A stretch of DNA of 64,000 bases from Leisingera sp. M658. GTDB lineage: Bacteria; Pseudomonadota; Alphaproteobacteria; Rhodobacterales; Rhodobacteraceae. Where the stretch lies: NCBI RefSeq assembly GCF_025144145.1, contig NZ_CP083546.1, positions 3,178,501-3,242,500 of the forward strand, in the 5' to 3' direction. Under the pieces are notes generated by a model. It was not told where the DNA came from and did not search any database. It saw nothing but the letters and a program-made list of their open reading frames with translations. Both the position numbers and the translations under genes were made by a program. This document shows, piece after piece, positions 25,303 to 43,760 of the stretch (position 1 is its first letter; every line of letters starts with the position of its first letter).

Positions 25303-26388
25303 CTAATTACCTGCCGCGTCCTTGATCAGTGCCGCAAGACGAAAGAACCCATGCGCCATTTTGGTGTAGGGCATCAGCAGAAAAAAGGTCAGCACCGCGC
25401 CAAGATGCAACGGCAGCAAAACCGCAACCGCCGCAGTGCCCGCAGAAGCATAAAGCAACAAACCGCTGAGCGATACGAACCCCAGCAGCAGCACAAACCC
25501 CATTTCTCCGGCCCATACCCGTCTGGCTCCCAAGGCCGGTTCAGCCTTAAGCTTCAGCCGGGCCAGTTCCAGGCAGCCTGCTGTCAGCAGCAGCCCGCCT
25601 GGAACGCCCAGCAGCTTAGGCAGGCTGAGCAGCCCGTAGGGCGCGGGCCAATCGAAAACGTAATGCATAATGGTACCCGATATGGTTGACCCGAAGCACA
25701 TGAAGACCCCCCACACAACCGCCTGATGTGCGTATCTGCGTGCGTTGGAAAAGCGGTCTTCGTCTTCAAAATTGCACCCCTGCCCCTGACCGCCTGACAG
25801 GTCCTTCATATATGCGGCACGGCTCAATGCCTGACGGATTTGGGACCTCCCAACCCCCTGCCCGCCCACATGGCGCCAATATCGGCGCAAGGACACAAAC
25901 AGCGCCAGAAGCGGCAGCAGGAAGGCGGGCATGAACACCGAGACCATCAGCCCGTGGCTCATCACCGCATAAAAACCTTCACCGCTTTCGGGGCGCAGCG
26001 TCTGCGCGGCCCAGAACAGCACTGCAAACCCCAGCATCAGGGCCACGGCCAGCGCCGTGCCGCTGCGCTGGAACAGCCTGGCCAAGGGGCTGGGCCAGGC
26101 AAAGCGCTCCCAGCTTTCGGTGCGCACTTCTGCCAGAATACCGGGCAGGTTCAGGTCGAACTCATGCGGTTCGGTGTATTGGCAGGCGTAGTAGCAGCCA
26201 CGGCAGTTGTGGCAGAGGTTGGCGAATTGGGTAACATCGGCGTCAGCAAAGCTGCGCTGCCGCATGATTGCCGGAAAGACTGAACAATAGCCCTCGCAGT
26301 AACGGCAGGCATTGCAGATCTCGATCTGGCGGCGGGCTTCGTCGATCCGGGCCGCCGCCTTGCGCTCCATTTGGCTCTGTTCAAACAT
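25303..26388 (-). CDS. TcuB-like membrane iron-sulfur electron-transfer protein
   Basis: This 361-residue protein resembles TcuB of tricarballylate use, which re-oxidises the flavin of its dehydrogenase partner. The N-terminus carries two ferredoxin-like clusters: CNACRYCEGYC (about 30-40), then CHNCRGCYYAC (about 63-73). The rest is membrane helices with His residues that may bind haem (for example in the VMSHGLMVSVF and YAHQAVVWGVF segments). Its start overlaps the dehydrogenase gene by 8 bp. It is the last gene of the operon. The electron donor may not be tricarballylate here. Confidence 0.82.
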   Translation of the reverse strand: MFEQSQMERKAAARIDEARRQIEICNACRYCEGYCSVFPAIMRQRSFADADVTQFANLCHNCRGCYYACQYTEPHEFDLNLPGILAEVRTESWERFAWPSPLARLFQRSGTALAVALMLGFAVLFWAAQTLRPESGEGFYAVMSHGLMVSVFMPAFLLPLLALFVSLRRYWRHVGGQGVGRSQIRQALSRAAYMKDLSGGQGQGCNFEDEDRFSNARRYAHQAVVWGVFMCFGSTISGTIMHYVFDWPAPYGLLSLPKLLGVPGGLLLTAGCLELARLKLKAEPALGARRVWAGEMGFVLLLGFVSLSGLLLYASAGTAAVAVLLPLHLGAVLTFFLLMPYTKMAHGFFRLAALIKDAAGN

Positions 26389-27760
26389 ATCGGGCGGCCT
26401 CCCGGCCCGCGATACGGCCGAAAACCGTGCCGATGGTCATGCCGAAGCCGGCCAGATAGCCCTGCCCCAGGATCGAACCGGCCATAGTCTCGCCTGCGGC
26501 CCAAAGGTTTTCAACCGGTCCATCCGCACCTTGCACCTGGGCGGTCTCGTCCACCTTGAATCCCAGATAGGTAAAGGTCACGCCGGGGCGCAGCGAGTAG
26601 CCGTAAAACGGCGGCTCGGTGATCGGGCGGGCCCAGTTGGTCTTGGGAGGAGTGAGGCCTTCGGTCGCCAGCCCATCCAGCTCGGTCGGGTGAAAAGTCC
26701 CGGGGCGGCAGGAGGCGTTGAAGGTTCCGATAGTCCTCGCGAGCTTCTGCGGGTCCAGCCCCAGCTTGCCCGCCAGTTCCGGAATCGTGTCCGCAGTGAC
26801 CGGCGGGAAGACCGAGGGCATGAACAGGTCCTTGGATTTCGAGTCGATGATCGAATAGGCCACCTGCTCCGGCTCGGCAGCCACCAGCCGCCCCCAGATC
26901 GCATAGCGCTTGGGCCAGACATCCTCGCCCTCGTTATAGAAACGGTCGCCATGTTTGTTCACCACCACTGAGAACGGCACGCAGTCGAGCCGGGTGACAA
27001 TGCCGCCATCGAACTTGGGCGCGCGGCCGTCGATCGCCACCGCGTGGCATTGGGTCGGATCGCCGATGGACTGCACCCCCTGCCCCAGCAGATTGAACAG
27101 CACATCGCCGCGGTTGTAAGGCGTGCCGCGGATCAGGAAGTTCTCCGCCTCCGGCCCCCAGGCCTCGACCAGCCGTTCGATATTGCCTTGAAAACCGCCA
27201 GAGGCCGCCACCACCGCGGGCGGGCTGAGACTGTGGCGCGCGCCGCCATGGGTGAAATCAACCCTGGTAATCCGGTCCCTGTCCAGTTCGATATGGGTGA
27301 CTGGCGCCTCATAGAGCACCTCGACCCCCAGCGCCTCCGCGGTGCGGTAATAGGCGTTGACCAGCGCCTTGCCGCCGCCAAGGAAAAAGGCGTTGGTGCG
27401 GCTCAGCGACAAGGTGCCCGACAGCGAGGGCTGGAACCGCACCCCATGCGCCTCCATCCAGGGCTGGCTCTCCTGGCTGCCGCGGATCGCCATGCGGGCC
27501 AGGCGCTCGTCGGTATTGCCTTTTGTCACCAGCAAGAGGTCGTTGTAATATTCATCCTCTCCGTAGGTGCCGGTCAGCACCGACAGAGGCCCGTCATGCA
27601 TGCAGCGGAAGTTGCGGGTGTGGCGCGAGTTGCCACCGCGGTAGGGCTTGGGCGCGGCCTCCAGCATCAGCACGCGCTTGCCCGCCTCCGCCGCGGTGAT
27701 CGCAGCGCAAAGGGCGGCATTGCCGCCGCCCGCCACAACGATATCGGGATAGCTCATCAT
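26381..27760 (-). CDS. TcuA-like FAD-dependent dehydrogenase
   Basis: This 459-residue soluble flavoprotein is of the fumarate reductase/succinate dehydrogenase type (FAD_binding_2). The N-terminal dinucleotide fold is VVAGGGNAALCAAITAAEAG, the closing FAD contact is LWAAGETMAGSILGQGYLAG, and there is a GGFQGNIERL segment. The nearest named family is TcuA, which oxidises tricarballylate to cis-aconitate together with TcuB. Here it sits in an operon with amine-demethylating enzymes, so its substrate is likely a different carboxylate. It overlaps neighbours by 8 bp (tcuB-like) and 4 bp (ThDP enzyme). Confidence 0.85.
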   Translation of the reverse strand: MMSYPDIVVAGGGNAALCAAITAAEAGKRVLMLEAAPKPYRGGNSRHTRNFRCMHDGPLSVLTGTYGEDEYYNDLLLVTKGNTDERLARMAIRGSQESQPWMEAHGVRFQPSLSGTLSLSRTNAFFLGGGKALVNAYYRTAEALGVEVLYEAPVTHIELDRDRITRVDFTHGGARHSLSPPAVVAASGGFQGNIERLVEAWGPEAENFLIRGTPYNRGDVLFNLLGQGVQSIGDPTQCHAVAIDGRAPKFDGGIVTRLDCVPFSVVVNKHGDRFYNEGEDVWPKRYAIWGRLVAAEPEQVAYSIIDSKSKDLFMPSVFPPVTADTIPELAGKLGLDPQKLARTIGTFNASCRPGTFHPTELDGLATEGLTPPKTNWARPITEPPFYGYSLRPGVTFTYLGFKVDETAQVQGADGPVENLWAAGETMAGSILGQGYLAGFGMTIGTVFGRIAGREAARYV

Positions 27761-29430
27761 CGGGGCTGCTTTGGCGCCTTGAACAGGTCCTTGCGCAGGG
27801 TCATCAGCGCACCGGGGTCGATTTTTCCCTGGATGATGGTGGTCTCGCCACTGGCCAGTGCGGCCTCCAGCGCCGGGCCCATTTCACCGGGACCAGCGAC
27901 CCAGATTCCCTTGCCGCCGCAAAGCTCCGCAAATTTGTCATAGCGCGGCGAGGTGATCTCAGCCCCCAAGAGACGCCCGCCATAAAACTCCTGCTGATAG
28001 GCTTTCTCGGCGCCCCAGGCCTCGTTGTCCAAGACCACCACCACAATTGGCAGCTTGTGCTGAATGGCGGTCTGGATTTCGATCATGGTGTAACCGGCAG
28101 CGCCATCGCCCATTATTGCGACCACCGGGCGGTCCGGCGCGGCAGCCTTGGCGCCAATCGCAGCAGCCAGGCCAAAACCGACCAGGCCGAAGTCCAGCGG
28201 CGTGATCAGGCTGAGGGGGTCGTAATGCGCCAGCCGGTCGGCGGCCTGCAGGCAGGTGTTGCCGGTGTCCAGAGTGACGATTGCGTTTTCGGGCAGTGCT
28301 GCGCGGATTTCGCCCAGCGCCCGGCGCGGGTGCATCGGCAGGGTGGCGATTTGCGCTTCTTCTTGGCGTTCTGCAGCGAGGCTGGCCATATCCGCCTTGA
28401 ACGCCGCGCGCCATTCATCCGCGGCAGGTTTCGACGCCGCAGTGGCCAGCGCCTCGGCAGTCAGCCTGGCATCGGCCTGCACCGAAATTTCCGCCGGGAA
28501 GTAGCGCCCAACGGCAGAGCCGTCGATGTCCACATGGGCGATGCGGGTGTCTGCACCGACATAATCGTTGCTGTGAAAGGTGGAGTTGAAGCCCAGCCGC
28601 GCGCCCAGCACCACCATCACGTCGGCTTCCTTGGTCAGACGGCTGGCCACCCGGTTGCCGCGCGGACCGGCCTGGCCTGCAAACCACGGATGGCCGTGGC
28701 GCATCACGTCGGCATGGCCGGTCGAGGCCACCACCGGCACCTCCAGCGTTTCCGCCAAGGCGGTCAGCGCCTCGCGTCCCTTGCCCCACTTGAAGCCGCC
28801 GCCCGCAAAGATCACCGGGCGCTGCGCGCTTGCGAGCAGATTTGCGATGGCGCTGATGTCTTCCGGCGCCGCAGGCCCCGGGCGGGCGATGTTCACTGGC
28901 TTGGGGTCGATGGCGGGTACGCCGGCGGCAAACAGATCGCGCGGCACATGCAGCACCACCGGCCCGCGGCGGCCCGAGTTGGCCAGCCGGATCGCGTCCT
29001 CCAGCATCGGTGCCAGGCGCGCAGGATCCGTGACCATGACCGAGCGTTTCGAGATCGGTGCGAATAAGGCAACCTGGTCAACCTCCTGAAAGGTATCCTT
29101 GGCCTGATCGCAGCGGCTGATGGCCCCGGCAATCACCACCAGCGGCGAATAGGCCAGCTGCGCCTCGGCTACCGCGGTCACAATGTTGACCACGCCGGGG
29201 CCTGCCTGCGCCCCCAGCACCACACCGGGCTTACCGGTCATTCGCGCCCAGGCATCGGCCATATGACCCGCCGCACGCTCATCCCGCGCGCCGACATAGC
29301 CGATGCCGCCGCCCTGATACATCGCGTCGTAAAGTTCCAGCATCGAGCCGCCCAACAGGCCGAACACAGTGTCGATGCCATTCGCCTGCAGCACGCGGTA
29401 GACGGCCTCGCCGCCATTGATCATGGTCAT
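27757..29430 (-). CDS. Thiamine diphosphate-dependent enzyme (acetolactate synthase-like)
   Basis: This 557-residue protein has the three-domain layout of the acetolactate synthase/decarboxylase family. The catalytic glutamate lies in the DERAAGHMADAW region, the central domain is PVIFAGGGFKWG, and the cofactor motif is GDGAAGYTMIEIQ followed by LDNEAWG. It lacks the sequence marks that fix one substrate. It could decarboxylate a 2-keto acid, an oxalyl-type CoA ester, or act as a ligase. It lies 3 bases after the oxidoreductase gene and overlaps the next by 4 bp. The start at 29430 has a poor ribosome site; coupling or the in-frame ATG at 29424 are possible. Confidence 0.85.
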   Translation of the reverse strand: MTMINGGEAVYRVLQANGIDTVFGLLGGSMLELYDAMYQGGGIGYVGARDERAAGHMADAWARMTGKPGVVLGAQAGPGVVNIVTAVAEAQLAYSPLVVIAGAISRCDQAKDTFQEVDQVALFAPISKRSVMVTDPARLAPMLEDAIRLANSGRRGPVVLHVPRDLFAAGVPAIDPKPVNIARPGPAAPEDISAIANLLASAQRPVIFAGGGFKWGKGREALTALAETLEVPVVASTGHADVMRHGHPWFAGQAGPRGNRVASRLTKEADVMVVLGARLGFNSTFHSNDYVGADTRIAHVDIDGSAVGRYFPAEISVQADARLTAEALATAASKPAADEWRAAFKADMASLAAERQEEAQIATLPMHPRRALGEIRAALPENAIVTLDTGNTCLQAADRLAHYDPLSLITPLDFGLVGFGLAAAIGAKAAAPDRPVVAIMGDGAAGYTMIEIQTAIQHKLPIVVVVLDNEAWGAEKAYQQEFYGGRLLGAEITSPRYDKFAELCGGKGIWVAGPGEMGPALEAALASGETTIIQGKIDPGALMTLRKDLFKAPKQPR

Positions 29431-29433
29431 GTC

Positions 29434-31845
29434 TTAATCCTCGGATCGGGGCCGCAGGTTCTGCGGGTCAAACAGGGCGTCCGGGTGGACGGTCACGGGA
29501 AATTCGCGGTTCAGGATCTGCACACAGAGGCCCTCTTGCGGGGTGCCCTTGCGGACAAACAGCCAGCCCAGCGATTTGCCGACGGTAAAGCCATAGCCGC
29601 CCGAGGTGGTCAGACCGACTGGTTTGCCATCCAGCAGCACCGGCTCGCCGCCGTGGATGCCGATGCCTTCCGCATGCAGTTCGGCGTAGAACAGCTCCCA
29701 GCCCGGATCGCGGGCCAGCAGCGCCTCCTTGCCCAGGAAGGTCCGGCCCTCTGTCACCACAAACCGCTCCAGCCCAACGTCCAGCGGCCCCACGTCGGTG
29801 GTCAGCTCGCCGGAGGCGCGATAAGCCTTCTCCATCCGCATACCGTTGAAGGCATAGGAGCCAAGGTCGCTCAACCCGTGTTTCTCTCCAGCGGCAAACA
29901 GCGCGTCATAGAGTTCACCGATCTGCTCCAGCGGCGCGTGCAGCTCCCAGCCGAGTTCGCCCACAAAAGAGACCCGCAACGCATAGCAGGGAATGCTCGC
30001 CACGGTGATCTCCTGCCCGGACAGCCAGGGGAAAGCCTGGTTCGTGAGGTCTGCATAGGTAAGCTCCGCCAGGATCCGGCGCGAGGCTGGGCCGGAGAGC
30101 GCCAGCATGCCCCAATCGTGGGTGCGGTTGATCATCTGCACGTCTTCGCCATCGCGGATGTGCGACTTGATCCAGTCGAAATCCGGATTGGCGCGGGCAA
30201 TTGGCGAACCAGTGAAATATCGGCCCTCAGACATCCGCCAAATGGTGATCTCGGTCTCAAACCGGCCCTTTTCGGTCAGCAGGTGATTGAGGCTCATCCG
30301 CCCGTCGCGCGCGGGGATCTTGTTGGCCGACAGCCGGTTCAGCAGCACGCCTGCGTCCCTGCCGGTGATCTCGAACTGGGCAAAGGCGCAAAGGTCGATG
30401 ACGCCGGCTGCCTCCCGCGCCGCCTTGGCCTCTGCCATGGCATTGGCGTGCCAGGGCTGATGGCCCCAGCCGATCTGCTCTGTCTCGCCCACCTCGCCAA
30501 AGTAACGCGGGCGCTCCCAGCCTGCGACCTCGCCGAAAACCGCGCCCTTGGCGGCCAGCCGGTCATAAAGCACATGGCGGTTCAGCGGGCGCAAGCTGTT
30601 GAACTGCTTGCCGGGGCACGGGGTATCATGGCGGCGCATGAACTCATCCTTGGTGCGCTCGACAATGAAATGATCGGTCGAGAAATTGCCATAGCGGCGC
30701 GGATCCATGCCGCGGGTGTTGATCGGCGTTTCGCCATGCACCATCCAATCGGCCAGCACCTTGCTAGCACCGCCGCCCCAGGCGAGGCCAATGGAAGACC
30801 CGCAGGACAGCCAGACATTCGGCGCGCCCGACGGCCCCACCAGCATGCCGCCGTCCGGCGTATGGGTGATGGCGCCGCGCACCACGCGCTTGATACCCAG
30901 CTCCGCCAGCACCGGCATCTTCTCAAACGCCATCATCAGAAAATCACCGATGGAGTCGTAATCCGCCTCGAACAGCTCATTCTCGGCGGCCCAAGGCGCG
31001 CCGCCCGGCATCTCCCAGACCGTAGGGCAGACGTGGCCTTCATAGATGCCGATCAGGCCGGATTTCTGCTCCTGCCGGATATAGCCGCCATAGGCGTTGT
31101 CGCGCATCACCGGCAGTTCCGGGCGGCCGGTAAACTCCGGCACCGTATCCGTGACCAGATAGTGATGCAGGCAGCTGACCGAGGGGATCTTCAGCCCGAA
31201 CCACTCACCCACCTGATTGGCATAGGAACCTGCAGCAATCACCACATGTTCGGCCAGCACATCGCCCTTTTCCGTGCGCAATAGCCACATGTCTCCCTTG
31301 CGGGAGGCGCCCAGAACCTGATTGCGGCGTTCAATCCTGGCTCCGCGCGCGCGGGTGGCCGCGGCCAGCGCCATGGTGACGGATGAGGGGTCGATATGGC
31401 CGTCCTCAAAGGTGCGCACAGCCGCCTTGACGTCATCCGTCTTGTAGAAAGGGTTCACGCTGGCGACCTCCTTCGGGCCGACCAGTTCCATCGGCAGGTC
31501 CAGCAGTTTGCCGACGCCCATGATGGACTTCATCCAATCCACCTCGTCATCGTTGGTGGCAATGCGGAAGCCGCCGACCTCATGCCAGCCGATGGATTGG
31601 CCGGTTTCCTTCTCAACTTTCTTGTAGGTATCGATCGAGGTCTTGTTGATCCAGCCCGCCAGACGGCTGCCCACCGCATGGGCGATCTGCCCCGCCGCGT
31701 GCCAGGTGGAGCCGGAAGTAAGTTCCGCCTTCTCGAACAGGATCGTGTCGGTCCAGCCGTTCTCGGCCAGCTGGAACTGGGCGGCCACGCCCATGATGCC
31801 GCCGCCGATGATAGCAACCTGTGTGGTGCGGGGGATGTCAGTCAT
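29434..31845 (-). CDS. FAD-dependent demethylating oxidoreductase fused to GcvT domain
   Basis: This 803-residue two-module protein is of the dimethylglycine/sarcosine dehydrogenase type. Module one (about 1-430) is a DAO-fold flavoprotein with the FAD motif VAIIGGGIMGVAAQ; the His in SGSTWHAAG matches the residue that holds FAD covalently in that family. Module two (about 430-800) is GcvT-like and should pass the oxidised methyl group to tetrahydrofolate. It is 37-40% longer than a lone GcvT plus oxidase would need in linker. The substrate is an N-methylated amino acid, but which one is not clear. The start overlaps the previous gene by 4 bp. Confidence 0.9.
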   Translation of the reverse strand: MTDIPRTTQVAIIGGGIMGVAAQFQLAENGWTDTILFEKAELTSGSTWHAAGQIAHAVGSRLAGWINKTSIDTYKKVEKETGQSIGWHEVGGFRIATNDDEVDWMKSIMGVGKLLDLPMELVGPKEVASVNPFYKTDDVKAAVRTFEDGHIDPSSVTMALAAATRARGARIERRNQVLGASRKGDMWLLRTEKGDVLAEHVVIAAGSYANQVGEWFGLKIPSVSCLHHYLVTDTVPEFTGRPELPVMRDNAYGGYIRQEQKSGLIGIYEGHVCPTVWEMPGGAPWAAENELFEADYDSIGDFLMMAFEKMPVLAELGIKRVVRGAITHTPDGGMLVGPSGAPNVWLSCGSSIGLAWGGGASKVLADWMVHGETPINTRGMDPRRYGNFSTDHFIVERTKDEFMRRHDTPCPGKQFNSLRPLNRHVLYDRLAAKGAVFGEVAGWERPRYFGEVGETEQIGWGHQPWHANAMAEAKAAREAAGVIDLCAFAQFEITGRDAGVLLNRLSANKIPARDGRMSLNHLLTEKGRFETEITIWRMSEGRYFTGSPIARANPDFDWIKSHIRDGEDVQMINRTHDWGMLALSGPASRRILAELTYADLTNQAFPWLSGQEITVASIPCYALRVSFVGELGWELHAPLEQIGELYDALFAAGEKHGLSDLGSYAFNGMRMEKAYRASGELTTDVGPLDVGLERFVVTEGRTFLGKEALLARDPGWELFYAELHAEGIGIHGGEPVLLDGKPVGLTTSGGYGFTVGKSLGWLFVRKGTPQEGLCVQILNREFPVTVHPDALFDPQNLRPRSED

Positions 31846-34244
31846 GTGCGAAACGCCTCTTTGGCGGGTTTCAGAGATGCCTTAGCGCCATAGCGGGTGC
31901 AGGCGATTTCGACCTCAAATCCCGGGACAACGGTGTTTTTGGAAAGCAGGCCCAGGGGTGCATCAATCATCGCCAATGCCAACGAACGCCCGTAGCGATA
32001 GCTCCACGCGGCCGAGGTGATCTGCCCCACCACATCGCCGCCGAAATAGACCGGCTCGTCGTGGATCGGGATGGCCTCCGGATCATCAAACAGGATTGAG
32101 ACAATCCGGCGCTTCGGGGTGTGCGACATCAATGCCTCTTCGCCTACAAACCCGGTGCCAAAGGCGCAGAAAACACCCAGGCCCGCCTCCTGCGGCGTGA
32201 TGCCGGGGCTGAGCTCATGGCCAAAGGCGCAAAAGCGGCTTTCGATCCGCAAGGACCCGCTGGCGTACAGACCTGCATGGCTTGCACCTGCCGCCAACAG
32301 TGCCTCATAGGCGGCCATGGCCATGTCGGCGGGGATGTACAGTTCATACCCCTCCTCGCCGGTGAAACTCTGCCGCCCGGCCCAGCCGCGCGCCAGGCCG
32401 ATCTCGACAGCGGCGAACTGGAAGCGTTTCAAATCCGGCACCGGGCTGTTCGAGGTCGCTTGCAGTACCTCGCGAGCCTTTGCGCCTGCTAGACCGATGA
32501 TCGCGTAGCCGCTGGTGACATCGGTGAATTCCACGTGAAACGCATCTTTGGTCTCACGCATCCGCTTCAGGTCGCGCACCACCTCACCGGCGCCGGCGAT
32601 CATGAGGTAAGCGTTTGCCCCGTGCCGTTGCACGGTGATGTCGCTTTCCACCCCGCCTTTGCGGTTCAGGATCTGGGTATAGGCGATGCGGCCCTCGGCG
32701 ATATCCATCTGCGCCGCACAGAGATGGTTGAGGAAGGCACAGGCATCCGGCCCCTGCACCATGATCTTGCCGAATGCGCTTTGGTCCAGAATGGCGGCGC
32801 CGTTGCGGCAGGCGTCTACCTCTCGGCCCACTTGATCGCGCCAGGCAGGCACGCCGAAGGTCAGCGGCAGATGCGCGTCCGCACCGCCAAAGTGCACAGC
32901 GCGCTCCCAGCCGCCACGGCTCTCAAAACGCGCACCGGCAGCCGCAAGGCCAGCGTGGATGGGCGAGCGGCGCTGGCCGCGGGCGGTCTCCATGGAACGC
33001 CCTGGATAGGGGTTGTCATAGTGACGGCCCAGCACCTCGGGGATGCGGGCCTCCAGCGCGCCCAGCACGTTCATTTCGGGGCTGAAGCGGCGGATGTCAG
33101 CCTCGTTCAGCTCGATCGCCGGCTCACCCGCAATGATCCATTCCGCCATCGCGCGCCCCGCGCCGCCGGCCAGTGCGATGCCAGTGGAGTTCATGCCGCC
33201 CATCAGGAACAGCCCCGGCACCTCGGGGCTTTCGCCCAGCATGAACTGGCTGTCGAGGGTGAAGCTTTCCGGGCCGTTCAGCAGCATCCGAACCTCGGCC
33301 TTCTCCAACGCCGGGATGCGGCGCAGGGCATTTTCCATCATCGGCATGAAATGGTCCCAGTCCTCGTCCAGCAGGTCGAACGAGAAGTCCTTGGGCAGAC
33401 GGTCCAGGGGCAGGCCTTTGGCGTGGGGTTCGAAACAGCCGACCAGCAGGCCCTCCACATCGTCGCGGGCATAGAGGAAGGCGTCCTGGTCATTCAGCGT
33501 CGGCAGATGCGCGCCCTTGCCAAGCGCCTGCACCTCTTCCAATGGTTTGGTCAGGATGTAGAAATGCTCGCAGGCGTAAAGCGGCATATGGGCGCCCGCC
33601 ATGGCGGCAACCTCGCGGGACCAGAGGCCGCAGGCGATGACCACCTCGTCGGCCTCAATCAGATGCTCGCCCACTTCGACGCCGGAAATGCGTCCGCCTT
33701 TCTTCTGCAACCCGGTGACGGCGGTATCTTCAAAGAACTGCACCCCCCGCGCCCGCGCGCCCTTGGACAGCGCCAAAGCCACGTCCGAGGGGTTCACCCG
33801 GCCATCGGCAGGCGACCAGACCGCGCCGATCACATCATCGGTTTCGATCAGCGGCCACAGCTCCTTGGCGCGTTTGGCATCCACCACTTCCGCCTCCAGC
33901 CCAAAGGCGCGGCCCAGCGAGACCTGGCGTTTAATGTTGGTCAGCCGGTCGGGGTTGGTGGCCAAAGTCAGCGAGCCGGTCTGGGTCCAGCCGGTGGCCT
34001 GGCCGGTCTCCACCTCCAGCTCTCTGTACAGATCAATGGAATAGTCGATCAGCTTGGTCAGCGTTGCCGAAGGCCGCAGGCGGCGTACCAGCCCGGCGGC
34101 GTGCCAAGTGGTGCCGGAGGTGAGTTTCGAACGCTCCAGCACCACGATATCCTTCCGCCCTTCGCGGGCCAGGTGATAAGCGATGGAACATCCGATGACA
34201 CCGCCGCCGATGATGACAGTGCGGGCGTGAGAAGGAAGGCTCAT
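31842..34244 (-). CDS. Second FAD-dependent demethylating oxidoreductase fused to GcvT domain
   Basis: This 800-residue protein has the same layout as its downstream neighbour. The FAD motif is VIIGGGVIGCSIAYHLA and the candidate covalent-flavin His is in SGTTWHAAG. The C-terminal GcvT region includes FVGEEALMSH and a glycine-rich tail. The two neighbours are clearly diverged, so they are not a recent duplication and may act on successive substrates such as a dimethyl then a monomethyl amine. Both flanks overlap by 4 bp, so translation is coupled in the operon. Confidence 0.9.
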   Translation of the reverse strand: MSLPSHARTVIIGGGVIGCSIAYHLAREGRKDIVVLERSKLTSGTTWHAAGLVRRLRPSATLTKLIDYSIDLYRELEVETGQATGWTQTGSLTLATNPDRLTNIKRQVSLGRAFGLEAEVVDAKRAKELWPLIETDDVIGAVWSPADGRVNPSDVALALSKGARARGVQFFEDTAVTGLQKKGGRISGVEVGEHLIEADEVVIACGLWSREVAAMAGAHMPLYACEHFYILTKPLEEVQALGKGAHLPTLNDQDAFLYARDDVEGLLVGCFEPHAKGLPLDRLPKDFSFDLLDEDWDHFMPMMENALRRIPALEKAEVRMLLNGPESFTLDSQFMLGESPEVPGLFLMGGMNSTGIALAGGAGRAMAEWIIAGEPAIELNEADIRRFSPEMNVLGALEARIPEVLGRHYDNPYPGRSMETARGQRRSPIHAGLAAAGARFESRGGWERAVHFGGADAHLPLTFGVPAWRDQVGREVDACRNGAAILDQSAFGKIMVQGPDACAFLNHLCAAQMDIAEGRIAYTQILNRKGGVESDITVQRHGANAYLMIAGAGEVVRDLKRMRETKDAFHVEFTDVTSGYAIIGLAGAKAREVLQATSNSPVPDLKRFQFAAVEIGLARGWAGRQSFTGEEGYELYIPADMAMAAYEALLAAGASHAGLYASGSLRIESRFCAFGHELSPGITPQEAGLGVFCAFGTGFVGEEALMSHTPKRRIVSILFDDPEAIPIHDEPVYFGGDVVGQITSAAWSYRYGRSLALAMIDAPLGLLSKNTVVPGFEVEIACTRYGAKASLKPAKEAFRT

Positions 34245-35536
34245 TGCAGTACTCCGTCACGGATGAGCGCGGAAAGGGTGCCGCGGAAATGCTCCACAGC
34301 CTCGTCGATCAATTCCGGGGTATGCGGCAGGCCGGTCACGCAAGAGGTGAAAGACATGAAATCCACCCCCCGCTCCAGCAGCCCGTCGCGCAGGCCCTTG
34401 ACGACGGTAGGCGGGGTTTTCCGGATGGCCGCTGTGTCCAGCCCGTCAATTGAGGTGCCGCCGAAATAGATGTGGCAGGTAGAGCTGCCGCCATAGGCCA
34501 GCGCCTGCACCTCCAGTTCGCCGAATACAGCGTTGAAGCCGTCGCGCAGCCGGGCCGCCATCGCATCGGCCTGGGCTTGGACCGCGCCGGTGGACAGGAT
34601 CTCCATCGCCTTGACGGCACCCGCCGCGACCATTGGGGCTGCATTGAAAGTCCCCTTGTGGCTGACTGGCGGCGACAGCCCGTCGCGGGTCTCGCCCGGG
34701 TTCAAGAGCTCCATGATTTCCGCTTTTCCGACAACTGCGCCGCCGGGCAGGCCACCGGTTACGGCCTTGGCCAGGGTGGTCAGGTCCGGCACCACACCGT
34801 CGCGGGCCTGACGCCCGCCGGGCGCCCAGCGCAGACCGGTAATCACCTCGTCAAAGATCAGCACATGGCCGCTTTGATCAGCCAGCGCGCGGATGCCTTG
34901 CAGGAACCCTTCGGGCAGCGGCACCGAGCCGTAGTTGGCGCCCGAAGCCTCGACAAACACCGTGCCGATCTGCGGGTCGCTATCCAACAGCGCGGCAATG
35001 GCGTCCAGATCCGGCGGGGCCACCACGGTCAGGTCGCAGACCGCCTGCGGCACCCCCAGCGAGGGCACGGTAGTGGTGCCGGGTTTGGCACCCTTGATCA
35101 GCATGTCGTGCCAGCCATGGAAATGGCCGTCGATGCGCAGCACCTTGTCGCGGCGCGAGTGCGCCCGGCCCAGCCGCAGCGCCAGCATAGTGGACTCGGT
35201 GCCGGACCCGGTGAAACGCACCCGCTCCGCCGAGGGGAACAGACGGTTCAGCCACTCGGCCCATTCCACCTCCAGCGGGTGGCAATCGCCGGTATAGGGC
35301 ATACGCCCCATCTGGGCTGCCACCGCGGCGGCGACCTCAGGGTGGGCATGGCCCAGGATCTGGCTGGCCGCGCCCAGCTTGAAATCGATATAGCGCTTGC
35401 CGTCCGCGTCCCATTTCTCAGCCCCCTTGGCGCGGGTGAAATAGACCGGATGCGGAGTCTTGTAGCGCAGCTCATGGCTGACCCCGCCCGGCATGACAAG
35501 GCGGGCGCGCTCAGCAAGGGATTGGCTGGTGTTCAT
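34241..35536 (-). CDS. Class III aminotransferase (glutamate-1-semialdehyde aminomutase-like)
   Basis: This 431-residue PLP enzyme has the cofactor lysine in DLTTLAKAVTGGLPGG and conserved segments RFTGSGTESTMLALRLGRA and DEVITGLRW. It resembles HemL but lies in a catabolic operon, so transamination or deamination of an amino intermediate is more likely than haem synthesis. The start at 35536 was preferred to an upstream frame because AGGAG lies 8 bases before it and the family N-terminus matches. It begins 8 bases after the deleted aldehyde dehydrogenase frame and overlaps the next gene by 4 bp. Confidence 0.87.
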   Translation of the reverse strand: MNTSQSLAERARLVMPGGVSHELRYKTPHPVYFTRAKGAEKWDADGKRYIDFKLGAASQILGHAHPEVAAAVAAQMGRMPYTGDCHPLEVEWAEWLNRLFPSAERVRFTGSGTESTMLALRLGRAHSRRDKVLRIDGHFHGWHDMLIKGAKPGTTTVPSLGVPQAVCDLTVVAPPDLDAIAALLDSDPQIGTVFVEASGANYGSVPLPEGFLQGIRALADQSGHVLIFDEVITGLRWAPGGRQARDGVVPDLTTLAKAVTGGLPGGAVVGKAEIMELLNPGETRDGLSPPVSHKGTFNAAPMVAAGAVKAMEILSTGAVQAQADAMAARLRDGFNAVFGELEVQALAYGGSSTCHIYFGGTSIDGLDTAAIRKTPPTVVKGLRDGLLERGVDFMSFTSCVTGLPHTPELIDEAVEHFRGTLSALIRDGVLQ

Positions 35537-35544
35537 GCCGGCTC

Positions 35545-35832
35545 CTAGTGGTTCAAAACAAAGGATTTTGTGGCGCAACAAGCACTGATGCCGGGAAACC
35601 CCTTTTCACGCCCCAAGCCGCTGTCCTTGACACCGCCGAAGGGGATGGTGCCGCCGCCTTTTAGGAAGCCATTGACGAACAGCTGCCCCGCCTTTGCCTT
35701 GCGGGCAATGCGCATGGCCTGGGTGGTACCCGCATCCCGGCATTCGGTAATGCTCCAACCGGCGGCCGTGCCGTCTGTCCAGCAATGCGGTATGAGGTCC
35801 AGCTGCCGGGGAAAAAGCGGGTGGTCCAGCAT
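35545..35832 (-). pseudogene. Aldehyde dehydrogenase remnant with a large in-frame internal deletion
   Basis: A 95-codon frame starts at the ATG of a TGATG overlap with the mttB-like stop. Its first 30 residues (MLDHPLFPRQLDL, then CWTDGTAAGW) look like an aldehyde dehydrogenase N-terminus (x-W-x-D-G-x-x-G). The last 60 (AMRIARKAKAGQLFVNG, PFGGVKDSGLGRE, ATKSFVLNH) are the family C-terminus. About 390 residues between, with the NAD fold and catalytic Cys/Glu, are missing, yet the frame is kept. It cannot be an active dehydrogenase. A small translated leftover is possible because the start and the operon spacing remain intact. Confidence 0.75.
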
Positions 35833-37376
35833 CACGCCCGCCCGATTTGCGCCCGGCTCAGACGAATATTGAACCGCGCGCGCAGTTCCTGGTCCTTGCC
35901 GTCCGGAATATGGGCGGGGAAGTGGCCGGCCAGCAGCTCCCGCGCCTTGTCCCTGGCCACTTCGCCAATCGCGCGCGCGCCCTGCTCTTCCCACTCCCTC
36001 GGGGTCTGGCGGTCACCCAGATGCGGATAGAAGTAGTCGGACTTCATCCGGCTGAAGGTGTGGCGGTGGCCCAGATAGTGGCCTTCACCACGGCAGACTT
36101 CGGCAATCACCTCGGCGCCGATATTCTCCGCATTCACCTCTACTCCGCGCAGGGTCCGCAGGATGTTGCCGATCATGTCGTTGTCGACCACATAAGCCTC
36201 CAGCGACACGCCCAGAAGGCTTGCCTGCATGCCGCAGGCCTGGGTGATCAGGTTGGAACCGGCATGGGCTGCGGAAGACACGGCCAGGTTCTTCTCGCTG
36301 CCATACTGGGCATCCAGCGTCTTGGAGTCGGTGATGCCGGCAATCGAGGTCACGGGCAGATCATAGAACCGGCCCATCTGTGCCGCGGCCGCCATCAAGA
36401 TCGCCTGCTCGCCGCCGCCTGCGCACATTGATCCGGTGCGCAGGTCGGCAATCAGCGGCTTGGCACCATAGATCGCGGCGGCATCCGGGTCGACGAGCCG
36501 GGCAAACACCAGCCCGGCCAGAGTTTCCGCCACAGCCTGCACCAGCGAGCCCGCAATGGTTGCCGGGCTGGTGGCGCCCGCTTGGCCTGCCGAGATCAGC
36601 TGCACCGGGAAACCCGCCAGAACCGCGGCCTCCAGCGTGTCCAGCGCCTCCTCGGCAAAGCGCATCGGCGGCACCACGTGGCAGACCATCACAGTCAGGA
36701 AGGGGCGCGCGCGAAAGGCCTCTTCGGATCCGGCCAGCGCATAACACATCTCCGCCAGCTGCTGCACATTCTGCGGTTCGGAAACCGACACCGACACATG
36801 TTTGGAGGTGCCCATCAGGCAGGCATAGGCAGTGTTCAGGTCCATATCCGCCACGTCCCCGACATCGCGGGCCACCACCGAGCGGCTGAAATGGTGAATA
36901 TTTTCCATCGCATCGCAAATGCGCGCCGCGTCATAGAGGTCTTTCAGCGTGCTATCCCGGTAGCGCCCGTCCTCAAGGTCAAATACCCCGGGCGCGCCGC
37001 CGCCCGAGCTCATGTGGACACGTTTGCCGGACAGGTTCAGATCATGGCGCGGATCCTGGCCATAGAGCACCACATCGCGGCGGGCTTCCTTGATGGTTTT
37101 CAGAACCAGCGCCCGCGGGAACAGCAGCCGCTTGTCTTGCGTATAGCTGCCACCCGCAGCGCAGACTTTCTCGATCATCGAAGGTGTTGCCTGGCTCAGC
37201 CCCAGCGTTTCCAGCAGCGACAGCACCGCCTCGTTGATCTCAGCCTCATCGGCGTCGCTGAGAGGCCGGAACCGGCCGCCCTCAATGCCGCTCCAGACCG
37301 GCGGGTTGTCTTCTGCCGGTGCGCTTTCGGCTTCGATCCGGGCTTCTCTGCCGCGGCGGCGCGCTCTTGCAGCCAT
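35832..37376 (-). CDS. MttB-family methyltransferase without pyrrolysine
   Basis: This 514-residue protein is of the trimethylamine methyltransferase superfamily. Family marks are the SSGGGAPGVFDLEDG segment, the SISxxQAGATSPATIAGSL-type run, the GSMCAGGGEQAIL segment and the C-terminal GEGHYLGHRHTFSRMKSDYFYP. There is no in-frame TAG, so it is of the non-pyrrolysine type, some of which use glycine betaine, proline betaine or carnitine and pass methyl to a corrinoid protein. No corrinoid protein gene is visible in the window. The start at 37376 follows GGGGAAG. It is first in the long operon and divergent from a LysR gene. Confidence 0.9.
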   Translation of the reverse strand: MAARARRRGREARIEAESAPAEDNPPVWSGIEGGRFRPLSDADEAEINEAVLSLLETLGLSQATPSMIEKVCAAGGSYTQDKRLLFPRALVLKTIKEARRDVVLYGQDPRHDLNLSGKRVHMSSGGGAPGVFDLEDGRYRDSTLKDLYDAARICDAMENIHHFSRSVVARDVGDVADMDLNTAYACLMGTSKHVSVSVSEPQNVQQLAEMCYALAGSEEAFRARPFLTVMVCHVVPPMRFAEEALDTLEAAVLAGFPVQLISAGQAGATSPATIAGSLVQAVAETLAGLVFARLVDPDAAAIYGAKPLIADLRTGSMCAGGGEQAILMAAAAQMGRFYDLPVTSIAGITDSKTLDAQYGSEKNLAVSSAAHAGSNLITQACGMQASLLGVSLEAYVVDNDMIGNILRTLRGVEVNAENIGAEVIAEVCRGEGHYLGHRHTFSRMKSDYFYPHLGDRQTPREWEEQGARAIGEVARDKARELLAGHFPAHIPDGKDQELRARFNIRLSRAQIGRA

Positions 37377-37484
37377 TGTCTTCCCCTGGCGGAATTCCTT
37401 TGCGCTTAGGCTACGCAGCCGCCGCCCGCGGCACAAAAACAAGTTTCTCTTGCTACTGATGAGAAAAACTCATTCAACTCAAGC
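37377..37484. promoter_or_regulatory. Divergent promoter region with a LysR-type dyad
   Basis: This 108-bp spacer separates mttB-like and lysR-like starts. TTTCTC-N11-GAGAAA at 37444-37466 is a dyad of the size bound by LysR proteins and lies 18 bases from the regulator start, which suits self-repression with activation of the operon. Confidence 0.6.
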
Positions 37485-38378
37485 ATGGTCAATCTTCCCT
37501 CCCTCCCCGCCCTGCGCGCGTTTGAGGCCGCGGCCCGTCTCGGCAGCTTCCGCGCGGCGGCTGAGGCGATTGGCGTCTCGCCCACCGCTGTCAGCCATCA
37601 CATTCGCGGGCTGGAGGCCTATTTGAACATCCGGCTTTTCACCCGTGATGGCCGCCAGGTGCATCTGACGGACGAAGGCGCGCGGCTGGCGGATGGCGCC
37701 TCACAGGCGTTCAGGATCCTGGAGGCCACAGTGAACTCAGTGGCCCGGTGGCCCGAGAAAACCACGATCCGCATTGCCTTGGGCCCCAGCTTTGCCACCC
37801 GCTGGCTGCTGCCCCGCTTTGCCGATTTCTGTGCAAAATTCCCGGATGTAGAACTGAAGCTGGTGCAGACCCCGCTGATGGTCTCGCCGCAGAATGTGGA
37901 CGCCGATATCTTTATCACCTGGGGCGACGGGCGGTTTCCCGGCATGATTTCCGAACCATTGGTCAGCGTGCTGTCGGCACCAGTCGCCAGCCCGGCCCTG
38001 CTGGACCGGCTGGGGCATCCGCAGTCACCTGCCGACCTGATGCGCTTTCCGCTCATCCACCAGCGTGACACCCTGGGCTGGAACGCCTGGTTCATGCAGG
38101 CCGGGGTCCGGCTGGACGGCCCGTTGCACGGTCCGGTCATTGAGGACACAAATGTGGTGCTGCAGGCCGCTGCGTCCGGGCAGGGTATCGTGATGGGGTG
38201 GATCCCGCTGATCGACACTGATCTGCAAAGCGGGGTGCTTGTGCAGTTGTTCGATAAAACCGTCAGCGAGAACCGCGCTTATTACCTGGTCCGGCCGGAA
38301 GCAGGCCCGAATGACAAGGTCACCAGCGCTATCAGCGACTGGCTGCTTGCCCAGACATCACCAGCAACGGCAGTCTGA
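37485..38378 (+). CDS. LysR family regulator (GcvA-like)
   Basis: This 297-residue protein has an N-terminal winged helix-turn-helix (about 5-65; LPALRAFEAAARLGSFRAAA, ISPTAVSHHIRGLE-type) and a C-terminal effector-binding domain (about 90-290). The closest layout is GcvA/AmpR-type regulators. It lies divergent to the mttB-led operon and most likely controls it. There is no strong ribosome site before the ATG at 37485. The effector is unknown. Confidence 0.9.
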   Translation: MVNLPSLPALRAFEAAARLGSFRAAAEAIGVSPTAVSHHIRGLEAYLNIRLFTRDGRQVHLTDEGARLADGASQAFRILEATVNSVARWPEKTTIRIALGPSFATRWLLPRFADFCAKFPDVELKLVQTPLMVSPQNVDADIFITWGDGRFPGMISEPLVSVLSAPVASPALLDRLGHPQSPADLMRFPLIHQRDTLGWNAWFMQAGVRLDGPLHGPVIEDTNVVLQAAASGQGIVMGWIPLIDTDLQSGVLVQLFDKTVSENRAYYLVRPEAGPNDKVTSAISDWLLAQTSPATAV

Positions 38379-39947: not shown

Positions 39948-41330
39948 ATGAGCGCATATGATCTGATTGTGATCGGGGCCGGGCCGGGCGGTTATGTCGC
40001 AGCAATCCGTGCTGCACAACTGGGTCTTAAGGTCGCCTGCGTCGAAGGCCGCGGGTCGCTGGGCGGCACCTGCCTTAATGTTGGCTGCATCCCCTCCAAA
40101 GCGCTGCTGACCTCCTCTGGCAAGTATGCCGAACTGTCCCATCTTGCTGCGCATGGCATTGCCGTTGAGGGCGCCAGCCTGGACCTGGGGGCGCTGATGG
40201 CGCGCAAGGACAAGATTGTCGGCGACCTGACCAAGGGCATCGCCTTCCTGTTCAAAAAGAACGGTGTCGACCATATCGAAGGCTGGGCCAGCATCCCCGC
40301 CCCCGGCCAGGTGCAGGTTGGCGGCGACACTTACACAGCAAAGAACATCCTGATTGCCACTGGTTCGGAACCCGCCGCCCTCCCCGGCGTGGACATCGAC
40401 GAAGTGGACGTGCTGAGCAGCACTGGTGCACTGGCGCTTGAAGCCGCGCCAGAGCATCTGGTGGTGATCGGCGCCGGCGTGATCGGGCTTGAACTCGGTC
40501 AGGTCTGGTCACGCCTCGGATCCAAAGTGACAGTTGTGGAATACTTCGACCGTATCCTGCCCGGCATCGACGGCGAGATCGCCAAGCTGTCCCAGCGGGC
40601 GTTGAGCAAGCGCGGGCTGAAATTCCAGCTGGGCCGCGCGCTGAAGACCATTGAGAAGGGCGAAAACGGCCTGACCCTGACGCTGGACCGTGTCGGCAAG
40701 GACAAGGAAGAGCAGGTTGAGGCCGACAAGGTGCTGATCGCCATCGGCCGCCGCCCGGTGACCCGCGGTCTGGGTCTGGAAGACCTCGGTGTCTCGATCA
40801 ACGCCCGCGGCTTTGTCGAGGTGGATGAAACGTTCCAGACCTCAGTGCCCGGCATCTTTGCAATCGGCGACTGCGTGCCCGGCCCGATGCTGGCCCACAA
40901 GGCTGAGGAAGACGGCGTTGCCTGCGTCGAAATCATCGCGGGCGAGCACGGCCATGTGGATTACAACACCGTCCCCGGCGTTGTGTACACCGATCCCGAA
41001 GTTGCCTCGGTCGGTCTGACCGAAGAGGCTTTGAAAGAGGCCGGCACCAACTACATCACAGGCAAGTTTGCCTTCATGGCCAACTCCCGCGCGCGCTCCA
41101 CCGGCGAGACCGACGGCGCAGTCAAAGTGCTGGCCACGCCCGATGGCAAGATCCTGGGCGCACATATCTGCGGCGCGCATGGTGGTGATTTAATTGCCGA
41201 ATTGGTGCTTGCGATGACAAAAGGTGCTACTATCGAGGAGGTTGCACGGACTTGCCATGCGCATCCTGCGATGGGTGAGGCGGTGAAAGAAGCCTGCCTT
41301 GATGCACTTGGCCGCGCCATCCACGCCTGA
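39948..41330 (+). CDS. lpdA: Dihydrolipoyl dehydrogenase (glycine cleavage L protein)
   Basis: This 460-residue FAD/NAD enzyme re-oxidises the dihydrolipoyl arm of GcvH. The redox pair is C42 and C47 (GTCLNVGC), the FAD fold is IVIGAGPGGYVAAIRAAQ, the NAD fold is VVIGAGVIGLELG, and the catalytic His-Glu lies in CHAHPAMGEAVKEA. GGAGGAG is 7 bases before the start. As first gene of the lpdA-lipA-agcS-usp-gcvTHP unit it is likely the dedicated L protein, although it could also serve keto-acid dehydrogenases. Confidence 0.96.
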   Translation: MSAYDLIVIGAGPGGYVAAIRAAQLGLKVACVEGRGSLGGTCLNVGCIPSKALLTSSGKYAELSHLAAHGIAVEGASLDLGALMARKDKIVGDLTKGIAFLFKKNGVDHIEGWASIPAPGQVQVGGDTYTAKNILIATGSEPAALPGVDIDEVDVLSSTGALALEAAPEHLVVIGAGVIGLELGQVWSRLGSKVTVVEYFDRILPGIDGEIAKLSQRALSKRGLKFQLGRALKTIEKGENGLTLTLDRVGKDKEEQVEADKVLIAIGRRPVTRGLGLEDLGVSINARGFVEVDETFQTSVPGIFAIGDCVPGPMLAHKAEEDGVACVEIIAGEHGHVDYNTVPGVVYTDPEVASVGLTEEALKEAGTNYITGKFAFMANSRARSTGETDGAVKVLATPDGKILGAHICGAHGGDLIAELVLAMTKGATIEEVARTCHAHPAMGEAVKEACLDALGRAIHA

Positions 41331-41348
41331 TCCGGAGGGATATGCCAG

Positions 41349-42293
41349 ATGACGATCCAGCTAAGACCCCGCCACCCGGAAAAGGCCCATAAGGCCGACA
41401 GCGCGATCCCGCGCAAACCGAAGTGGATCCGCAAGAAGAAGATCGAAAGCGCCGAGTACTATGAAACCCGCAAGCTGATGCGGGAGCATGATCTGGCAAC
41501 CGTCTGCGAAGAGGCCGCCTGCCCCAATATCGGCGAATGCTGGTCCAAGCGCCACGCCACCATGATGATCATGGGTGAGGTCTGTACCCGCGGCTGCTCG
41601 TTCTGCAATGTGACCACCGGCAGGCCGGACACGCTGGACGCGTTTGAGCCGGGCCGGGTGGCGGCGGCCGTCAAAAAACTGGGCCTGCGCCATGTGGTGA
41701 TCACCTCAGTTGACCGGGATGATCTGGCCGACGGCGGCGCTGAACATATCGCCCAGACCATCCGTGCTACCCGCCATCAGAACCCGGGCACTACAATCGA
41801 GGTCCTGACACCGGATTTCCTGGGCAAGGGTGAAGCGGCGGATGCGGTCTTTGAAGCAGCGCCTGATGTGTTCAACCACAACCTGGAAACCGTACCGCGC
41901 CTCTACCCGCGCGTCCGTCCCGGTGCGCGCTACTATACCTCGCTGCGGCTGCTGGACGACGCCAAACGCGCCAACCCGCAGCTGTTCACCAAGTCGGGCA
42001 TCATGGTCGGCCTTGGCGAGACACTGGACGATGTGCGCCAGGTGATGGATGATCTGCGTGCGGCACAGGTCGATTTCCTGACCGTGGGCCAGTACCTGCA
42101 GCCAACCCCCAAGCATCACCCGATCGACCGCTTCTGGTCGCCGGAAGAATTCGCGCAGCTGGAACAGATTGCCCGGTCCAAGGGCTTTCTTCACGTGTCG
42201 GCCACGCCGCTGACCCGTTCCTCGTTCCACGCGGATGAAGACTTTGCCGCCCTGAAAGAGGCCCGTCAGATGGCCTTGGCGAAGGGCATTTAA
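41349..42293 (+). CDS. lipA: Lipoyl synthase
   Basis: This 314-residue radical SAM enzyme inserts two sulfurs into the octanoyl group on lipoyl domains. The auxiliary cluster cysteines are C53, C58 and C64 and the radical SAM cysteines are C79, C83 and C86 (CTRGCSFC); a C-terminal RSSFHADE motif is present. GGAGGG lies 9 bases upstream. Placing it in the glycine cleavage operon supplies lipoate for GcvH. Length is typical. Confidence 0.96.
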
Positions 42294-42318
42294 CCAAGAC
42301 GTTATCGGGAGGAGACCC

Positions 42319-43689
42319 ATGGAAGCGTTAAGTAATGCAGTAGGCTGGATCAACGGGATTGTTTGGGGGCCGCTTATGCTGGTTCTCATTCTGGGCGTTG
42401 GCTTTTTCCTGCAGGTCGGCCTGAAATTCATGCCGATCCTCAAACTGGGCATGGGCTTCAGCCTGCTGTTCAAAGGCCGTGAAGCAAGCGGTGAAGGCCA
42501 GATCAGCCCGTTCAACGCGCTGATGACTTCGCTGTCGGCCACAATCGGCACCGGCAACATTGCCGGTGTTGCGACCGCCGTTTTCCTGGGCGGTCCCGGT
42601 GCTTTGTTCTGGATGTGGATGACCGCTCTGGTCGGCATGGCCACCAAATACGCCGAAGCTGTTCTGGCGGTGAAATACCGTGAGCAGGACGAGCTGGGCA
42701 ACTACGTCGGCGGCCCGATGTACTACATCAAGAACGGCCTTGGCGCAAAATGGGCCTGGCTTGGCGGTGCGTTTGCGCTGTTTGGCGCCATCGCAGCCTT
42801 CGGCATCGGCAACGGTGTGCAGGCCAATGGCGTGGCACAGGTTCTGGACTCGAACTTTGGCGTGAACACCTCGGTGACCGGCGTGATCCTGATGGTTCTG
42901 ACCGCAGCCGTGATCCTGGGCGGCATCACCCGTATCGGTGCTGTGGCTGGTAAACTGGTGCCTTTCATGGCCGTCAGCTACATCATCGCCGGCCTGCTGG
43001 TTCTGCTGATCAATGCAGGCGCTATCGGCGACGCGCTGAGCCTGGTCTTCACCCATGCCTTCACCCCCTCTGCTGCCGAAGGCGGTTTTGCTGGTGCGGC
43101 GGTTTGGGCGGCGATCCGCTTTGGTGTGGCCCGCGGCGTGTTCTCGAACGAAGCCGGTCTGGGCTCTGCCCCGATTGCGCATGCTGCAGCCTCGACTGCC
43201 GGCCCAGTGAACCAGGGTCTGGTTGCCATGCTCGGCACCTTCATCGACACCATCATCGTTTGCTCGATCACCGGTCTGGCGATCATCGCATCCGGTGCCT
43301 GGACATCCGGTGAATCCGGTGCGGCGCTGACCTCGCTGGCCTTTGAGACCTCCCTGCCCGGAATTGGCGGAGCATTGATCGCAGTTGCCCTGTCGATCTT
43401 TGCCTTCACCACCATCCTCGGCTGGTCTTTTTACGGCGAGAAATGCGTGGGCTTCTTCTTTGGCGCCAAAGCACTGATGCCCTACCGCGTGCTGTGGATT
43501 GTTGCGATTTACTTTGGCGCAACTGCGGACCTCGGTTTTGTCTGGCTGCTGGCGGATACGCTGAACGCCATGATGGCCATTCCGAACCTGATCGCCCTGG
43601 CCCTGCTGAGCCCGATCGTCTTCAAACTGACGAAAGCGTTCTTTGCCTCGGGCGGCGCGTCCGAAGGCACTGGCACAGCCGCCAAGTAA
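42319..43689 (+). CDS. Glycine/alanine:sodium symporter (AgcS family)
   Basis: This 456-residue membrane protein has about ten helices and the family signature GTGNIAGVATA near 75-85 and NEAGLGSAPIAHAAA near 278-292. The family imports alanine or glycine with Na+. Its place inside the glycine cleavage operon points to glycine. GGGAGGAG precedes the start. A hairpin follows the stop. Confidence 0.93.
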   Translation: MEALSNAVGWINGIVWGPLMLVLILGVGFFLQVGLKFMPILKLGMGFSLLFKGREASGEGQISPFNALMTSLSATIGTGNIAGVATAVFLGGPGALFWMWMTALVGMATKYAEAVLAVKYREQDELGNYVGGPMYYIKNGLGAKWAWLGGAFALFGAIAAFGIGNGVQANGVAQVLDSNFGVNTSVTGVILMVLTAAVILGGITRIGAVAGKLVPFMAVSYIIAGLLVLLINAGAIGDALSLVFTHAFTPSAAEGGFAGAAVWAAIRFGVARGVFSNEAGLGSAPIAHAAASTAGPVNQGLVAMLGTFIDTIIVCSITGLAIIASGAWTSGESGAALTSLAFETSLPGIGGALIAVALSIFAFTTILGWSFYGEKCVGFFFGAKALMPYRVLWIVAIYFGATADLGFVWLLADTLNAMMAIPNLIALALLSPIVFKLTKAFFASGGASEGTGTAAK

Positions 43690-43700
43690 CCGACCTCCTT

Positions 43701-43721: not shown

Positions 43722-43760
43722 AGCCCCTTGCACTCATTTTACCACCTGAGGTGATGACAG

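Follow-up and report, generated by a model that had tools for sequence, protein, structure and literature searches.

A run of eight open reading frames (ORFs) lies on the minus strand of a 64,000-nucleotide stretch of Leisingera sp. M658 DNA (hereafter the window; genome size 4.89 Mb), from position 37376 down to 25303. On balance, its gene content and order favor a catabolic operon under LysR control, with a small acidic quaternary ammonium compound (Me3N+-R) as its substrate. The operon is real and conserved, and it is built of known families. In the pathway that we propose, a methyltransferase of the MttB superfamily would pass one methyl group to folate by way of a shared MtgC-like corrinoid protein encoded outside the operon, and two FAD-dependent oxidoreductases (FADa and FADb) would remove the remaining two methyls by oxidation, yielding methylene-folate. 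A class III aminotransferase (AT) would then remove the amino group to give a carbonyl compound, and a thiamine diphosphate (ThDP) enzyme of an Xsc-like clade would cleave or activate this compound, most likely converting a 2-substituted aldehyde to an acyl phosphate. Aldehyde dehydrogenase (ALDH), amidase, and TcuA-like flavoproteins would provide optional side or downstream steps, and the window copy has lost ALDH and probably gained TcuAB. Gene set, gene order, conservation, a module swap, and the ALDH loss are features of the sequences themselves; every reaction and the order of the reactions we infer.

Re-reading of the ORFs reproduced the eight-gene layout, coordinates, and junctions of the original prediction exactly to the base, and profile searches agreed with its family assignments. 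The first gene (35832..37376) encodes a non-pyrrolysine methyltransferase of the MttB superfamily (514 aa, PF06253, open frame) and has one base, at 35832 (TGATG), in common with a 95-aa ALDH remnant (35545..35832), in which the N and C ends of the protein are joined by an internal deletion. An 8-bp gap separates the remnant from AT (34241..35536, ATG at 35536, 431 aa, PF00202), which is of the glutamate-1-semialdehyde aminomutase (GSAM) / D-phenylglycine aminotransferase type. AT overlaps FADa (31842..34244, 800 aa) by 4 bp (34244/34241), and FADa overlaps FADb (29434..31845, 803 aa) by 4 bp (31845/31842); both are dimethylglycine dehydrogenase (DMGDH)-like FAD and folate-binding (GcvT) oxidoreductases. 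After a 3-bp gap follows the ThDP enzyme (27757..29430, 557 aa, TPP_enzyme N/M/C), overlapping by 4 bp (27760/27757) a TcuA-like flavoprotein (26381..27760, 459 aa), which in turn overlaps by 8 bp (26388/26381) a TcuB-like Fe-S membrane protein (25303..26388, 361 aa). A GcvA-like LysR regulator, recognized by profile matches, is encoded divergently on the plus strand (37485..38378). Apart from ALDH, all of the operon reading frames in the window are intact. A scan for promoters and terminators gave 2 promoters versus 2.4 in shuffles and 12 terminators versus 9.4 (sd 3.1).

Conservation was compared across 38 sources, with counts limited to the flanks examined: 28 intact core operons, one decayed operon (L115, in the congener G593), three contig fragments, one locus with ALDH and AT only (L053), and five variants with an Old Yellow Enzyme (OYE)-type gene. 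LysR, MttB, AT, FADa, FADb, and ThDP were all present in the 28 core operons, including that of Ruegeria pomeroyi DSS-3; L057 was counted among them, though its ThDP frame is broken. Because the identical gene order recurs in other genomes, where the original prediction had proposed to seek it, the arrangement reflects more than chance. The recurrence supports a single operon, which appears to be common to many marine roseobacters, and the gene set is no accident. The nearest named copies were from Leisingera, in a search that may omit records very close to the window. ALDH, amidase, and TcuA-like flavoproteins are optional to the operon: among the 28 core operons, ALDH was full-length in 9, a remnant in 2, and absent in 17, while an amidase was found in 8, a full c8 flavoprotein in 9, and TcuA proper in 4. 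The c8 flavoprotein is TcuA-like (35–37% identical to the window TcuA) and is split over two frames in R. pomeroyi DSS-3. Counting the window's own genome each time, ThDP matches at 1e-100 occurred in 17/198 family genomes (8 at ≥68% identity and 9, from a different cluster, at 44–48%), FADa in 9/21 genus genomes (including the broken G593 copy), and ThDP matches at 1e-120 in 10/385 class genomes, three of them OYE variants. By counting from SPOA0300 (PMC9870897), the R. pomeroyi operon corresponds to SPOA0309-0314. In 2014, SPOA0309 carried the annotation Xsc (PMC4334477), and SPOA0310 is listed, with the label glycine, as more highly expressed late in a diatom culture (PMC9723723).

In the five OYE variants (L028, L029, L105, L106, and L107), a single flavoenzyme of ~645 aa lies between orthologous MttB and ThDP genes, replacing AT, FADa, and FADb. 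An OYE-type domain was found in the scanned L028 and L029 enzymes, with a pyridine-nucleotide domain in L028, and the L107 enzyme had NCR and 2,4-dienoyl-CoA reductase as its best solved relatives. Phylogenetic analysis placed the AT form as one clade inside the OYE forms in both the ThDP tree (30 AT-form rows, one gene twice) and the MttB tree (28 rows), with 100/100 support in each. Because both trees show this nesting, MttB and ThDP appear to have stayed while the middle genes were exchanged. On the simplest reading, the OYE-type enzyme and the FADa, FADb, and AT set would start from a common dimethylated intermediate and arrive at a common carbonyl product, the former freeing dimethylamine and the latter retaining the nitrogen along with two one-carbon units. 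The swap supports an order of B12-dependent demethylation, removal of the remaining nitrogen group, and ThDP action on the carbonyl product. Together with the gene order, it lends weight to two elements of the original prediction, namely an N-methylated substrate class, which is probably correct, and the proposed succession of demethylation, amino group removal, and ThDP step.

MttB matched PF06253 with 452 bits against a gathering score of 25, which places it in the superfamily, and fell below the trimethylamine:corrinoid methyltransferase cut-off (TIGR02369, 343 < 525). No in-frame stop (amber/pyrrolysine codon) was present within its frame, and the nearest solved chains were 9yce (glycine betaine methyltransferase) and 2qne (a putative methyltransferase). 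The window genome, one of marine type, contains eleven PF06253 genes, the other 10 being 23–46% identical to the operon MttB. The operon includes no corrinoid protein gene; an MtgC-like corrinoid protein with an adjoining DUF1638 gene is encoded in the window genome, and MtgC-like matches were found in 12/12 genomes searched, none at cut-off (197 < 370), as well as in 11/14 control genomes. Sharing of this protein by MttB is plausible, by analogy, because MtgC, MtgD, RamA, and DUF1638 act from separate loci in glycine betaine use by R. pomeroyi, according to the accessible text of PMC12478193. The MtgBCD system described there resembles the window operon in its MttB-superfamily protein, its corrinoid protein encoded elsewhere, and its aerobic marine host, and R. 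pomeroyi also carries the window-type operon. The window operon differs in having another MttB, with AT and ThDP genes following it; furthermore, the proteins listed as increased on glycine betaine in that part of the source do not include those of the window-type operon.

A second MttB gene in the window (55788-57350) belongs to a region (54783-63156) that also encodes a LysR regulator (54783-55775), a DMGDH-like protein (57493-59928), and ABC transporter components (60014-61279 and 62161-63156). In L107 (4817-4920), an Rfam PYLIS_3 match (40 bits, cut-off 38) falls inside the open-frame MttB gene and is probably sequence homology only.

FADa and FADb both matched the dimethylglycine dehydrogenase structure 5l46 (E 2e-123 and 3.5e-148, respectively) and carry the motifs SGTTWH and SGSTWH, which we take to be histidyl (covalent-type) flavin motifs. 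Each contains DAO, FAO_M, GCV_T, and GCV_T_C domains, the same domain order and flavin motif as in dimethylglycine dehydrogenase/oxidase, although here two paralogues stand in one operon with AT and ThDP. The best solved chain for AT was 2cy8, a D-phenylglycine aminotransferase. AT shares with this enzyme and with GSAM the sequence family, the lysine, and a conserved N-terminal arginine, but lies below the GSAM cut-off (TIGR00713, hemL; 265 < 527). R24 and K257 were invariant in an 11-sequence alignment, and the N-terminal arginine aligned with an arginine of GSAM, presumably the carboxylate-binding Arg32; because this residue is kept, AT points to an acidic substrate. AT identity to the window protein was 58–63% in 10 of the 28 core operons and ≥73% (73–93%) in the rest, while ThDP, FADa, and FADb were ≥82% identical across core operons. 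AT may therefore have been exchanged, or may differ in substrate, among operon copies.

The best models for the ThDP enzyme were those of Xsc (409 and 389 bits), with both cut-offs failed (TIGR03457, 389 < 676, and 386 < 676 in a genome-wide search); the 5-guanidino-2-oxopentanoate decarboxylase model scored 280 bits. Like Xsc, the enzyme has NxxWGAEK and a C-terminal (F/L)R(R/K)D motif, here LRKD, and Xsc joins the operon ThDP clade in the tree (support 99/94). WGAEK occurred in 48/49 rows of the clade comprising operon, OYE, and luciferase-cluster sequences (the exception, L040, ends early) and in the window genome's own Xsc, and in 0/7 other ThDP proteins; its residues, together with R546 and D548, were invariant in a 14-row alignment with Xsc included. 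The enzyme also retains a Glu51-type residue, which glyoxylate carboligase lacks. Its predicted structure had a mean pLDDT of 64, with loops 389–418 and 471–494 and the C-terminus below 50. The genome's own Xsc (L002) scored 929 bits and is ~32% identical to the operon enzyme. A true Xsc was found in 11/12 genomes carrying the operon ThDP gene (broken in G593), and 0/14 control genomes had one over cut-off. Because a true Xsc is present in nearly all of these genomes, the operon enzyme appears to be an Xsc paralogue with its own task; unlike Xsc, it also stands without Xsc-type neighbor genes. Its relatives at 44–48% identity (L032-L040) belong to another cluster, with ALDH, a luciferase-like monooxygenase, and a hydrolase in 9/9 loci, LysR and DUF1185 in 7/9, and flavin reductase in 3/9 (clusters named from L039); these loci gave no clue to substrate.

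Several points weigh against the proposed pathway. No conserved transporter was seen in the operon flanks examined, one check having sampled ten proteins. The corrinoid partner is a guess, given a model that also matches most controls and never reaches cut-off. The role of the OYE-type enzyme is one that we infer for a protein whose best solved relatives are reductases of the NCR and 2,4-dienoyl-CoA types, and with two AT identity groups, operon copies may differ in substrate. As for the ThDP enzyme, Xsc sits on a long branch (7.89), the tree was rooted at its midpoint, and the tree tool flags such joins as possibly false; the failed Xsc cut-off and the true Xsc in 11/12 genomes make another substrate or chemistry possible, and no sulfite or phosphotransacetylase gene was found among the operon genes. 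We nevertheless favor the aldehyde route over a 2-oxo-acid route and over oxidation through Tcu, without naming a firm compound.

The 2-oxo-acid route would convert an alpha-amino-acid betaine to an amino acid and a 2-oxo acid, followed by ThDP-dependent decarboxylation to an aldehyde and its oxidation by ALDH where that enzyme survives. The nearest solved relative of AT is indeed an alpha-aminotransferase, one family of the ThDP superfamily consists of 2-oxo-acid decarboxylases (that of the 280-bit model above), and nine core operons retain full-length ALDH; however, the ThDP enzyme scores higher with Xsc models and carries Xsc motifs, and ALDH is missing or broken in 19/28 core operons, so we consider this route possible but doubtful. 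Of the originally predicted transamination to a keto acid, the removal of the amino group is supported; the keto acid itself is not, because the ThDP enzyme resembles Xsc, whose substrate is an aldehyde. Taurine betaine (trimethyltaurine), converted to taurine and sulfoacetaldehyde with the ThDP enzyme as a second Xsc, would be a special case of the favored aldehyde route. Three demethylating enzymes, one AT, and an Xsc-like ThDP enzyme would suit it, as would the genes upstream in the OYE variant L028 for an ABC transporter whose binding protein is of the NMT1 type, a transporter that we take to be of the NitT/TauT type. We regard it as unlikely, given a ThDP enzyme so far under the Xsc cut-off and so distant from the genome's Xsc, the lack of sulfite or acetyl-phosphate genes among the operon genes, and a transporter at one locus only.

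A further possibility, compatible with any of these readings, is that the operon is decaying in the window and may no longer work. The original prediction had called its ALDH a remnant, and comparison with the 486-aa ALDH of Leisingera sp. ANG-M1 confirmed an internal deletion: ~20 N-terminal and ~60 C-terminal residues are kept, and ~390 middle residues are missing, presumably including the catalytic-cysteine region. Only profile positions 406–460 of 461 were matched, so the remnant does not qualify as a full-length ALDH, whereas full-length genes stand at the equivalent place in Leisingera sp. ANG-M1 and ANG-Vp. Because G593 has the same 95-codon remnant with the same junction, an open frame, and no indel, the deletion is probably older than the split between G593 and the window genome. 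ALDH also appears to have been lost more than once, because the remnant at L055 is cut by different deletions. The remnant might be a functional small protein, its frame being open in G593, but nothing further pointed to such a role. The G593 operon itself is broken from MttB to ThDP by nine frameshifting indels, one of which removes 187 bp of ThDP, and by in-frame losses (87, 279, and 354 bp); close to the start of LysR one stretch does not align, and nearby PuuR and GntR genes have no indel. Despite this breakage and the reduced ALDH, decay of the window copy seems improbable, since its other frames are all intact and 17 core operons have their core genes yet no ALDH at all. Glycine betaine as substrate, passing through glycine to glyoxylate (AT) and tartronate semialdehyde (ThDP), is the least credible reading despite the glycine betaine methyltransferase among MttB's nearest solved relatives and the DMGDH-like FADa and FADb, since the ThDP enzyme keeps its Glu51-type residue, its 25 best models do not include glyoxylate carboligase, and the available part of PMC12478193 names SPO2108 and SPO2134 as the PF06253 proteins increased in R. 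pomeroyi on glycine betaine, choline, or carnitine, and not the MttB of the window-type operon. These published proteomics count weakly against all three compounds.

The original prediction had assigned the final oxidation to TcuA and TcuB; this was not supported, and a place for Tcu in the pathway is improbable. TcuA passed both of its models (NF006130, 665 > 369; TIGR02485, 590 > 373) and was the sole genome match above the TIGR02485 cut-off, while TcuB passed TIGR02484 (336 > 247) but not NF011607 (368 < 524) and had no Pfam match. To this extent the pair resembles tricarballylate TcuAB, as it does in the divergent LysR gene beside TcuA and TcuB in L057 (a metagenome bin); in the window, however, it is joined to another operon, and no adjoining TcuC was noticed. 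In G593, TcuA is indel-free and TcuB has one in-frame 39-bp gap; none of the nine frameshifting indels in ~9.3 kb of MttB-to-ThDP coding sequence has a counterpart in ~2.5 kb of TcuAB (chance ~1 in 11), a distribution that is no more than suggestive. TcuAB is probably a recruited neighbor and a late addition to the operon. We rejected TcuAB as part of the core in view of its presence in 4/28 core operons, its own LysR in L057, and the suggestive G593 pattern. TcuAB as a CobZ-like B12 enzyme (the name of TIGR02485) is doubtful, with 24/28 core operons lacking such a TcuA in the flanks examined.

The LysR gene is on the opposite strand in 28/28 intact core operons and adjoins MttB in mapped loci. 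A candidate LysR operator, TGAGTTTTTCTCA (37460..37472), is an exact inverted repeat of the form TGA(G/A)-N5-(C/T)TCA. This form was exact at the same position of the LysR-MttB gap in 13/24 regions (11 AT forms and both OYE variants having a divergent LysR) and inexact or absent in 11. A second inverted repeat, CAAGAGAAACTTG (37440..37452), was exact in 4/24 regions, all close relatives. L107 has a GntR gene instead of LysR, and neither L105 nor L106 was found to have a divergent LysR gene.

Beside the operon, positions 39948-48601 of the window carry genes for dihydrolipoyl dehydrogenase, lipoyl synthase, an AgcS carrier, GcvT, and GcvP; the PuuR- and GntR-type regulator genes lie between the operon and these genes. 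In Ruegeria atlantica HKCCD9103 (L053), apparently only two ends of MttB are left (8243-8512; N end at E ~1e-6, C end a weak match at E ~0.02); ALDH and AT, both full-length, lie alongside, followed by a riboswitch and GbcA/GbcB-like genes. This cobalamin riboswitch lies directly 5' of the GbcA-like Rieske gene (L053 11397-11600), as does one in the window genome (L130 1304-1503, at ~350 kb of C1). The arrangement was found in 10/20 Rieske loci tested (30 fetched), the window genome included, and the pairing appeared in no paper among the matches listed (best 10 of 32). When the B12 supply for MtgBCD/MttB runs low, the riboswitch may turn on an N-demethylase that does not depend on B12.

The original prediction knew of no named pathway for this gene set, and no paper among the literature matches listed assigns one. 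As a tentative proposal, the operon could encode an undescribed B12-dependent aerobic pathway for a betaine abundant in the sea, with a new Xsc-like ThDP class (2-substituted aldehyde to acyl phosphate) as its last step; in the course of its history, three enzymes that conserve the nitrogen and both methyl groups would have replaced a single OYE-type enzyme that frees dimethylamine. According to PMC12478193, glycine betaine is a key currency that phototrophs and heterotrophs exchange, and the operon would handle another quaternary amine besides it. As R. pomeroyi carries the operon and an arrayed mutant library exists for this species (PMC10130141), the substrate could soon be identified. Should the Xsc-like reading prove true, the operon would add a further ThDP reaction class.

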